Assembly: GCF_009765835.1 (NCBI RefSeq)
Contig: NZ_LMUS01000001.1
Coordinates: 982,198 to 1,046,197 of the forward strand
From: Granulicella sp. L56
GTDB lineage: Bacteria; Acidobacteriota; Terriglobia; Terriglobales; Acidobacteriaceae
Direction of reading: 5' to 3'
DNA: 64,000 nucleotides
Part shown: positions 34,625 to 42,899 of the stretch, one piece after another
Position numbering within the stretch: the first letter of the stretch is position 1
Layout of the letters: every line of letters begins with the position of its first letter
Notes under the pieces: generated by a model
Databases searched by the model: none
The model's input: only the letters and a program-made list of their open reading frames with translations
What the model was told of the DNA's origin: nothing
Program-made: the position numbers and the translations under genes

Positions 34625-34815
34625 GTTGATGTACGCAGACGGAACCGGTCTCCTGACTGACGCGATGCATGATGGCCGTAGGACTTGGCTGCTTCCCTTC
34701 CCAATGCGTTGGCATCAGTGGGAGCGGCTGGCTGGCATTCACGCAGCGGTGGTGCGGCTGCGTGCGCGAATCACAGTTGCGGGGCAGTGGCGGAGTCTCA
34801 CCGCGCTTCCCGAGC
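34625..34815 (-). promoter_or_regulatory. Cobalamin riboswitch upstream of btuB
   Basis: Read on the minus strand, the leader carries the conserved core of the B12 element: GGGAAGCGCGGTGAGACTCC, then GCCACTGCCCCGCAACTGTGA, internal AAGCAGCCAAGTC, and the B12 box GTCAGGAGACCGGTTCC near 34659-34643. The order and spacing match cobalamin riboswitches. The element ends about 35 bases before the btuB start, so it probably acts on translation or early termination. Outer limits are approximate. Confidence 0.93.
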
Positions 34816-34989
34816 ATTCCGAATCGGGACAAAGGGTTTAAGTGGAACGGCCGGAGGTACGATGCCAGGCCGCAGGGGAAAAAGGGTGAGGCTTAAGTTT
34901 GAGGCATGGGTTGATGGAAGTCAAAAATGAATGCGTAGATCAATGCGTAGATCGAATGTGGACTGACAAGGCCCTGTTGTTTGCGGCCT

Positions 34990-38495: not shown

Positions 38496-41378
38496 CTATT
38501 GAACGGTTAGCGTGATGTTCACGGGCTGAGACGAAATGGACGATGCGCTGTCCGCCCCGCTTAAGGTGAGGACGTAGGTTCCTGCTGCCAGATTGCTGGT
38601 TGTAGTGGAACCGCCGGTGGTAGTGGAGCTGCTGCTGCCGCAACCAAAGGTCGAGAGCGTCGCCACCGAGATGACGCCGAGCGCGAGGAAGAGGCGCAGC
38701 TTGCGGGAACGGCCTCCCAGAAGACCGCAGAAAAGGAGACCGGCCAAAGCGACGCCCGCTCCTGTCCCCGGAGAGAAGGGCGTGGCTGGAGCCTTCCCAC
38801 GGCTAGCCTGGGGAGTGGAAGTGCCAAGTCTCCGCTTTGCTCCACTTCCTGAAGCCGCCAGATTGGCGCCGGAGCACTGTGAGGTAGAGGTATAGAGGGT
38901 CAGCGTTACGGGCACGGGAGCCGTGCCCGTGACCGTGGTGGTGCTGTTCGTACCGGTGCCGATGGCGTAGCAGAAGGAGGAGGTGGTGGACAGCGCCGTG
39001 GGGCCACTGAGTGACCAGTCGACGGTTCCCGTGTAGCCATTCACCGGGGTCACGTTGATCGTCGACGTACCAGTACCACCGGCGGCGACGCTAACGGTGG
39101 CGGGGGCGGCAGCGATGGAGAAGTTAGGCCCGATGTTGATGGTCACCGTATTGGTCGATGGCGCATAAGTTCCATCGCCCGAATAGGTTACGCGGACGAC
39201 ATGTGAGCCGTCGGTGGTGGAAGAGAAGCTATAGCTGGCAGTTCCGCTCGACAGAACCGGGGCAGGCGATACCGGCGCGCCATCGACCAGAACCGTAACC
39301 GTACCCGTAGGCGTTCCCGCACCAGTCGCAGGAGCGACGGCGATGCTGATTACGTCCGCAGCGCCCGAGGCAGGAGCAGTGCTGGCCGCCGTGACGGTTG
39401 TGATGGTGGCGAGCAGCGATGAGGTACCGGGAGCGGCGGCTGCCTTCCATGCGGTGAGCAGATTGTTGAAGTCAAGCGAACCGAGACCGGTGGCTTCGTC
39501 GTATCCAGTGGTCGCCGCGTAGAGCGATGGGTTTGCCGCTGCGGTGGTGCAATAGGCTGTTCCGGCGGTGCAGGCGTTGTTGCCGGTGGTGATGTCATGA
39601 AAGGCCGAGGCGTAGGTTGTGGGATTGGTAGCGAGCGCGTAAAGCGTTGGGTTGACGACGCCCTGCCCTGCCGAACCGGTCGCCTGATTGATCATGGCCA
39701 CCATGCCCGCGAAGATGGGAACAGTAAAGCTGGTGCCTCCAGCGACGGTCAGGTTGGTGTTGCTGCTGTCGCGGAAGCCGTTCGAGCAACTACCGGTGAT
39801 GCCGGTTCCATCAAAGTCGCTGGAGCAATAGAGATAGCCTGCGTTGTTGGGCGAAGCATCGAGAGAGATGTCGGGCACAAGACGGGTGGTGCCGGAGGGA
39901 ATGTTGGGCACGCCGGTCTGCCAGGTGGGCCGCGTGGTAGTGAGGACGCTGGCGCCGCCGCCGCCTGCTGAGATACCGGCAGTCGACGAATCGTCGTTCC
40001 AGACCTGCTCAGGGATGTAGGACTGCGCGGAGCTGATAACGTCACTGCCACTGGCCGCAGCCCAATAGCTGCTGCCAGCGGCGACGTTAGCGGCGGGGAA
40101 TTCAGTGCCCCCCATCCCGGTGACATATTGGCTGCTGGCAGGAAAGTCTACAGAGAGAGCCTGCTGCTGGGCAGTCGTAAGACCGCTGACCCCATAGCAG
40201 TCAGTCGAGCCGTCGTCTCCGCTGGCCGCGATCACAGTCTGGCCCTGGGCCGCCGCCTGCGCGAGCACACTATTCTCGGCGTTATATTCAGTCGTCGAGT
40301 ACTCGGTCTCGCAACCGCCGTAGCTGGTGCTGATGATGGGCGCGATGTCGTTGGTGACGGCGTATGCAATCGCGTCGGTCACACTGGCGTTGGTGTTGTC
40401 GCCGGTGTAGACGAAGTAGATGGTCGCACCAGGTGCGATGGCACCCGAGTATTCGAGGTCGAGGTCAGACTCTGATTCGTCTCCCGTAAAGACGGCGGTG
40501 CTGCCGGAGTTCGGCACGAGGACGAGGGTGGGATCTTTTTTGGGGAGACCTGCTGCGCTCTGGAAGTTCTCGATATCAGAGAGGACGATGGCGGACTGCC
40601 CCATGATGGCAATCGACTGGCCAGCGCCGTTGAGGCCTGTGCTCTGGGCGGCTTTGATGTCGTAGATGGTCTCGATATCGGCAGGGGTCAGAAAGTAGCT
40701 GCCGGTCTGGCTGGAGGTGAATTTGGCGGTGGGGACGACCTGGGGTCGCTGGACCCGCATGTGCGAGTGAGGACGGAAGTTCGAAAGATTGGTGACCGCC
40801 TGGACGACGGGAGAGAGGGCAGCGGGAAGGCTGATGTCGCCGGCAGGAGCGAAGTGGGTGGTGCCGTCGGTCTGATAGTTATGCAACTCGACGCCAAAGG
40901 CGGCTTCGGCTTGCGCCGCCGTTCCCGAGAAGGTGATGCTGTTCTTGCTGCGCGACACTGCTTCGACGGCAAAGCCCTGCTGCTCGAGCCAGGCCTCGGC
41001 CTTGGCGATATCGGCGTCGGACATGCCGAAGCGGGTGGCGAACTGGTCTGGGGTGAGCCAGGCGTGATATTGCGGCGAGGCAGGGCTCTGCTGGGCGGCG
41101 ATCAGGGCCTGAAGGTCGGCCTCCTGCGCGGCGGAGCGGCTGAAGACGAGGCTCATGCTGCCGAGCCGGGTCTGGGGCGCGAGGCTTCCCTTGTCTTCGG
41201 CAAATTTGGCGAGCGGAGGCTGGGATTTGGGCATCTCGACGCGCTCGGAGGTGATCTCTCCGGCGATCCGTGACTGAGGCTTCTGCGCGAGTGAGGAGAT
41301 CGTGGACCCGAAAATGAGCGAAGCGGATGCTGTCAGCCCTAACAAACTACGCCTGGAGAGGTAAAACTTTCTTGTCAT
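38496..41378 (-). CDS. S53 family (sedolisin-type) peptidase with Ig-like region and C-terminal twin-TM tail
   Basis: 960 residues. Tat-like signal (SRRSLLGL, residues 8-15), an activation-domain propeptide (about 35-210, QYHAWLTPDQFATRFG), then the catalytic domain with Glu303 and Asp307 (ESDLDLEYSG), oxyanion Asp388 (ASGDDGS), and Ser550 in GGTSFTVPIFAG. The calcium-site segment TGYDEATGLGSLD closes it. A Big_3-like Ig domain follows (TPTGTVTVLVDGAPV), then two hydrophobic spans (GAGVALAGLLFCGLLGG, LRLFLALGVISVATLSTFGCG), a Ser/Thr/Gly linker and a short extracellular beta segment. Acid-active endopeptidase, membrane-tethered outside the cytoplasm by inference. Confidence 0.9.
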   Translation of the reverse strand: MTRKFYLSRRSLLGLTASASLIFGSTISSLAQKPQSRIAGEITSERVEMPKSQPPLAKFAEDKGSLAPQTRLGSMSLVFSRSAAQEADLQALIAAQQSPASPQYHAWLTPDQFATRFGMSDADIAKAEAWLEQQGFAVEAVSRSKNSITFSGTAAQAEAAFGVELHNYQTDGTTHFAPAGDISLPAALSPVVQAVTNLSNFRPHSHMRVQRPQVVPTAKFTSSQTGSYFLTPADIETIYDIKAAQSTGLNGAGQSIAIMGQSAIVLSDIENFQSAAGLPKKDPTLVLVPNSGSTAVFTGDESESDLDLEYSGAIAPGATIYFVYTGDNTNASVTDAIAYAVTNDIAPIISTSYGGCETEYSTTEYNAENSVLAQAAAQGQTVIAASGDDGSTDCYGVSGLTTAQQQALSVDFPASSQYVTGMGGTEFPAANVAAGSSYWAAASGSDVISSAQSYIPEQVWNDDSSTAGISAGGGGASVLTTTRPTWQTGVPNIPSGTTRLVPDISLDASPNNAGYLYCSSDFDGTGITGSCSNGFRDSSNTNLTVAGGTSFTVPIFAGMVAMINQATGSAGQGVVNPTLYALATNPTTYASAFHDITTGNNACTAGTAYCTTAAANPSLYAATTGYDEATGLGSLDFNNLLTAWKAAAAPGTSSLLATITTVTAASTAPASGAADVISIAVAPATGAGTPTGTVTVLVDGAPVSPAPVLSSGTASYSFSSTTDGSHVVRVTYSGDGTYAPSTNTVTINIGPNFSIAAAPATVSVAAGGTGTSTINVTPVNGYTGTVDWSLSGPTALSTTSSFCYAIGTGTNSTTTVTGTAPVPVTLTLYTSTSQCSGANLAASGSGAKRRLGTSTPQASRGKAPATPFSPGTGAGVALAGLLFCGLLGGRSRKLRLFLALGVISVATLSTFGCGSSSSTTTGGSTTTSNLAAGTYVLTLSGADSASSISSQPVNITLTVQ

Positions 41379-41468: not shown

Positions 41469-41545
41469 TGGTGGCCCGGGCAGGAGTCCAACCTGCGACC
41501 TTCGCGTTAGGAGTGCGCTGCTCTATGCAACTGAGCTACCGGGCC
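41469..41545 (-). tRNA. tRNA-Arg (anticodon CCU) with unusual tertiary positions
   Basis: Cloverleaf of 77 nt read on the minus strand: acceptor GGCCCGG/CCGGGCC, D-arm GCTC...GAGC, anticodon loop CTCCTAA (CCU, Arg AGG codon), T-arm GCAGG...CCTGC, discriminator A and encoded CCA. Oddities: D-loop has G18-C19 instead of GG, and the T-loop reads TTGGACT so position 56 is G; 19:56 would be a swapped C:G. The anticodon stem has two end mismatches (27 G/43 A and 31 A/39 C). Functional status uncertain but the covarying pair argues for it. Confidence 0.88.
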
Positions 41546-41666
41546 AAAATAAAAAGAGCAAGATCAAGATAAATAGATATCAAGATAGGTGTTTAGACGG
41601 CTTTAGATGACAGTGTACCGTGAGGTTCCAGTCCGGCGCGGTGATAAACTTGGGGGTGGAGACTTT

Positions 41667-42899
<1,233 letters not shown>

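Follow-up and report, generated by a model that had tools for sequence, protein, structure and literature searches.

The locus and its arginine tRNA gene

The window, that is the whole 64,000-nucleotide stretch of DNA from Granulicella sp. L56 analysed here, contains a single tRNA gene, 77 nt in length with its CCA encoded, at positions 41469-41545 on the minus strand. ARAGORN calls this gene tRNA-Arg(cct), the identity already proposed in a sequence-only reading of the region, and Rfam RF00005 scores it at 56.5 bits against a cut-off of 29, with all four arms present. It is flanked by a pro-kumamolisin-type peptidase gene (38496-41378, minus strand) and by the divergent ispG (GcpE; 41607-42899, plus strand; Pfam GcpE E=6e-113), which we used as a marker of the orthologous locus. 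No consensus promoter or terminator was found at the tRNA gene. The window also contains a cobalamin riboswitch at 34626-34845 on the minus strand (60.7 bits).

On its own strand the gene reads GGCCCGG TA GCTC AGTTGCATA GAGC A GCGCA CTCCTAA CGCGA AGGTC GCAGG TTGGACT CCTGC CCGGGCC A CCA. The G19-C56 pair is regarded as almost invariant in cytosolic tRNAs. Direct reading of the D-loop (A14 G15 T16 T17 G18 C19 A20 T20a A21) and the T-loop (T54 T55 G56 G57 A58 C59 T60) bears out the earlier observation that both positions differ here, with C19 at 41527 in place of the usual G and G56 at 41489 in place of the usual C (both minus strand). The usual bases, near-universal though not strictly defining, are absent, and C19 and G56 retain the capacity to pair. 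The framework contacts G18-U55, U8-A14, G15-C48, U54-A58 and G53-C61 are all present. The anticodon CCU (41509-41511, minus strand) reads AGG and supplies C35 and U36, which together with A20 (41526, minus strand) and A73 leave the arginine identity bases intact; A20 is the main arginine determinant in bacteria and is read directly by ArgRS (PMC9976931). In the open reading frames of the window AGG occurs at a frequency of 3.1 per 1000 codons.

The anticodon arm (41502-41518, minus strand) carries two mismatches at the ends of its stem, G27-A43 and A31-C39, just as the sequence-only reading had noted. The first of these is also found in relatives with G19/C56, and the 31-39 mismatch (A31-C39 or A31-G39) is specific to the clade with the swapped pair. 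The mismatches weaken the anticodon stem and count against a working tRNA. Folding by minimum free energy gave a structure other than the cloverleaf (z -1.3), which by itself says little either way. Taken with two changes at near-invariant sites, the mismatched stem would favour a decaying gene in which both changes are random, one of the two possibilities that had been raised for this locus.

Conservation of the gene and covariation of positions 19 and 56

An Rfam search of the genome gathered 48 tRNAs, 47 of which have G19/C56, leaving tRNA-Arg(CCU) as the sole exception. It is the only CCU gene in the set, and the second, standard copy that had been named as a potential objection to a functional tRNA is not among the 48. 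The genome also encodes tRNA-Arg(UCU). A weak additional tRNA-Glu(UUC) with a long D-loop, AGCCCGGCCCA, was observed at 44 bits (G000:C1:401243-401317, L077).

All 77 nt of the tRNA-Arg(CCU) gene are the same in 27 further species of the genus (100% identity). The flanks compared, 120 nt on the upstream side and 100 nt on the downstream side, have identities of 0.49 and 0.51 across these congeners, where shuffled DNA gives 0.50. A pseudogene would be marked by purifying selection that is relaxed or absent, which an identical gene between flanks at the shuffled level does not show. Among relatives the changes in the T-stem are compensated (GCAGG/CCTGC to GGCAG/CTGCC or GCCGG/CCGGC) with C19 and G56 constant. 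The gene is shown, at the level of sequence comparison, to be under strong purifying selection. Decay is refuted by this conservation, with the compensated stems and the status of sole CCU gene also standing against it, and we consider it exceedingly improbable.

The CCU/G56 signature recurs in 101 of the 397 genomes of the order, in six genera, and every fully read copy that bears it has C19. Because of this recurrence the C19/G56 combination cannot be put down to chance or to a sequencing error, a concern of the earlier reading that is further excluded by the G19/C56 of the remaining tRNAs in the genome. The plasmid and phage GenBank collections gave no close match, the best places being 76-84% identical.

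In 65 distinct 77-nt CCU tRNAs the 19:56 combination is C:G in 33, G:C in 29 and U:A in 3, with pairing possible in 65 of 65 and no mismatches; these sequences are related rather than independent events and many were fetched for being swapped, although the swap still spans unrelated groups. By corrected mutual information 19:56 ranks 5 of 2926 column pairs, with only stem pairs placed higher, and none of 20000 shuffles matched the observed pairing. The 8:14, 15:48, 18:55 and 54:58 contacts are invariant across the 65 sequences. We also surveyed 247 Acidobacteriota genomes with fixed patterns (a GCTC/GAGC D-stem and two bases between 19 and A21, tRNAs of other builds being uncounted), in which 22 of the 23 matches to C19 with any anticodon were tRNA-Arg(CCU) with G56. 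The remaining match was a G18-G19 histidine tRNA in shifted register, and G19 with a non-C56 gave no match in these genomes at any anticodon. In these tRNAs the covariation shows selection acting on the predicted pairing capacity at 19:56, not on base identity.

We consider it very probable that the gene encodes a working, arginine-accepting and AGG-decoding tRNA whose elbow pair was reversed by two compensating changes in an ancestor of the clade and has been kept since. Function and pairing, as read from the compared genes, are well supported because positions 19 and 56 covary perfectly in the tRNA-Arg(CCU) of relatives, the CCU gene is single and purifying selection is strong; the suggestion that the tRNA functions with its elbow pair inverted is upheld, and that of a decaying gene is rejected. 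In an ancestor that several Acidobacteriaceae genera share, the two changes would have converted 19:56 from G:C to C:G, the new pair being maintained from then on, and C19 and G56 would pair in the folded RNA. Passages of PMC4810234 describe the 19:56 pair as offering a flat face that is engaged by the ribosome, RNase P and other partners. It is possible that the ribosome and RNase P tolerate the reversed pair because they stack on this face without reading the bases. The flat face is a likeness to the present case; these passages describe stacking on G19-C56 alone, whereas in the present tRNAs other Watson-Crick pairs seem to take that role.

Origin of the swap and use of the gene by mobile elements

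Sister genera carry a tRNA-Arg(CCU) with G19/C56, in several cases near ispG as in Granulicella sp. L56, and a CCU tRNA lies near ispG in many genomes, in both its G19/C56 and its C19/G56 forms. The sequence-only reading had held that G19/C56 orthologues together with random changes in this copy would speak for decay; the orthologues do exist, in the sister genera, but the Granulicella copy shows no random changes. Compared with canonical bacterial tRNA-Arg(CCU), the gene has the same cloverleaf, A20, C35, U36, A73 and 8:14, 15:48, 18:55 and 54:58 contacts, and shares the locus near ispG with several G19/C56 relatives. It differs in having C19:G56 rather than G19:C56 and in the A31-C39 or A31-G39 mismatch of the swapped clade.

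In a tree of IspG the swapped genomes form one group, with support of 94/89, except for G126 of genus g82. The tRNA of this genome shares the odd anticodon arm of the swapped clade, and this makes a transfer likelier than a separate second origin. On this tree the swap in the clade has a single origin, with one probable transfer. A further apparent carrier, G346 (g25), was set aside as probably misbinned, since over 2.7 kb its contig matches the g80 genome G280 at 92.8% identity. Three genomes with U19:A56 belong to genus g126, the other members shown being G19:C56.

tRNA genes commonly serve as integration sites, and such use alone leaves the swap unexplained. In many genomes 3'-half copies bearing G56 lie downstream of the intact tRNA-Arg(CCU) gene, and in two related species (L334 and L335) a tyrosine recombinase adjoins the copy, one belonging to a TrwC-relaxase element and one to a prophage. 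The gene of these related species is an integration site. Integrases attaching at the tRNA and rewriting its 3' half could have introduced G56, with C19 selected afterwards. However, the copies in the clade already have G56, and therefore testify to how the site is used today, not to how the swap arose. The intermediate that such a route requires, G19 with G56, was not seen in the 247 Acidobacteriota genomes, and all three swaps are displayed by arginine tRNAs of other anticodons and by phage tRNAs. We regard mobile elements as an improbable driver of the change.

Recurrence in other bacteria and viruses and the bias towards arginine

About 85,000 species were also scanned with a fixed pattern, from which the swapped Acidobacteriaceae clade was left out via base 31, and this gave at least 119 matches. 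The 119 listed comprise 103 with CCU, 6 with CCG, 5 with UCU and 5 with non-arginine anticodons. Among the matches listed, C19:G56 occurs for example in many named species of Brevundimonas, in Pyrinomonadaceae and further Blastocatellia, of which the cultured Pyrinomonas methylaliphatogenes is one, in a Marinicaulis and a bacterium of the Oscillospiraceae, in cyanobacteria (UCU) and in large tRNA arrays. Judging from taxonomy and sequence, we put the separate origins of the swap at no fewer than four or five among CCU tRNAs alone. In eight genomes reached from the matched loci the C19:G56 CCU tRNA lies outside arrays and is the sole CCU match in each, and two Acidobacteriaceae genomes with tRNA arrays have an ordinary CCU gene plus the array copy.

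The large arrays (L306, L339 on G299:C5, and L321), which consist of odd tRNAs and lie on contigs of Acidobacteriaceae and deltaproteobacteria, each contain a C19:G56 tRNA-Arg(CCU), with a tRNA-Thr bearing A56 in L306 and L339; they resemble tRNA islands of mobile elements or phages. Several odd tRNAs were also observed on a verrucomicrobial contig (L226), including an Ala(CGC) tRNA bearing C19:G56 and an Arg(GCG) tRNA bearing A19:U56. The cyanobacterial C19:G56 tRNAs (L222, L249 and L282) are Pyl(cta) according to ARAGORN; their stem and loop read tRNA-Arg(UCU).

C19:G56 CCU tRNAs in the arrays L306, L339 and L321 and on viral contigs could plausibly evade host tRNA nucleases there, and their occurrence would suit a specialised tRNA shielded from a process that reads the elbow, whether that process is cleavage by a toxin, modification by an enzyme or translation. 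The cell-wall glycine tRNAs of staphylococci are an example of specialised tRNAs of that kind. However, no partner gene of such a process was identified, and the chromosomal gene is the sole CCU tRNA in a genome where AGG is in use, so we give this explanation a slim chance.

Among the matches listed for viral contigs, counted with one fixed tRNA build as samples and not totals, arginine tRNAs account for 33 of 42 with C19:G56 (79%), 72 of 79 with U19:A56 (91%) and 88 of 114 with A19:U56 (77%). Pooled, these Watson-Crick swaps are arginine tRNAs in 193 of 235 matches listed (82%), compared with 134 of 317 (42%) for ordinary G:C viral tRNAs of the same build (Fisher p = 7e-22). Clustering at up to 6 mismatches gives arginine shares of 37% for G:C against 75% for C:G, 88% for U:A and 71% for A:U. 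Arginine tRNAs with CCG, UCU, ACG and UCG anticodons are swapped too. Neither the recurrence of the swap nor its concentration in arginine tRNAs was visible to the sequence-only reading.

These counts bear on whether relaxed constraint alone could account for the swap. If AGG is wobble-read by tRNA-Arg(UCU), a spare CCU tRNA may have drifted through a weak intermediate and been compensated later, with nothing special about arginine. The genome does encode tRNA-Arg(UCU), and most cellular cases are CCU, with 103 of the 119 matches listed. However, phage tRNAs are accessory and yet their swaps are 82% arginine against 42% for ordinary tRNAs of the same build; redundancy alone is therefore insufficient for the arginine bias, and the other arginine anticodons are affected as well. 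Relaxed constraint alone appears rather unlikely.

For the working tRNA with a reversed pair that we prefer, the bias suggests that arginine tRNAs may tolerate or favour swaps above other tRNAs, perhaps because ArgRS holds the elbow through the neighbouring A20. We infer this cause of their permissiveness, and no result here explains the preference. It is possible, and we offer this tentatively, that base identity at the elbow does not bind arginine tRNAs as a class, any Watson-Crick pair at 19:56 working through the grip of ArgRS on A20, with most other tRNAs held to G19:C56 by a base-reading partner and phages and some bacteria exploiting the freedom.

Other departures from G19/C56 are found in tRNA-Pyl and type II mitochondrial tRNAs, where the D-loop/T-loop motif is lost, whereas here the pair is retained and its bases are changed (PMC7609411). 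The R15-A48 and A54-A58 pairs of eukaryotic tRNA-Ala are likewise isoacceptor-specific departures at tertiary pairs that came from a sequence survey, but they concern other positions, are non-Watson-Crick and are restricted to eukaryotes; 19:56 swaps are not among the passages found of that paper (PMC7566577). In an open-access library we found no report of natural bacterial tRNAs with C19-G56, U19-A56 or A19-U56, and an earlier notice elsewhere is possible. The term 'C19-G56' appears once in the text searched there, as a passing phrase on tRNA-Ala in a ribosome structure, and in that passage the normal pair is probably meant (PMC10944890). Natural tRNAs with all four Watson-Crick pairs at 19:56, available in cultured Brevundimonas and Pyrinomonas and in phages, make it directly testable whether partners read the bases or stack only, and open the peculiarity of arginine tRNAs to test in the same way. 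tRNA gene finding and tRNA engineering often assume G19 and C56, and the swaps matter for both.

Pairing in the viral tRNAs is not absolute, as a base other than C56 accompanies G19 in at least 45 distinct tRNAs; of these, 37 form a G19:U56 wobble (loci L891-L956), 20 of the 37 being arginine tRNAs. Viral matches listed with C19/non-G56 (103) and U19/non-A56 (91) proved to be mostly register variants with a GCG, GGC or GGT D-loop, not mismatches of the arginine type. At the viral loci L537-L652 many non-arginine tRNAs (Lys, Val, Phe, Asn and Asp) have a G-C-G D-loop with C56 unchanged, as if a C had been inserted between G18 and G19.
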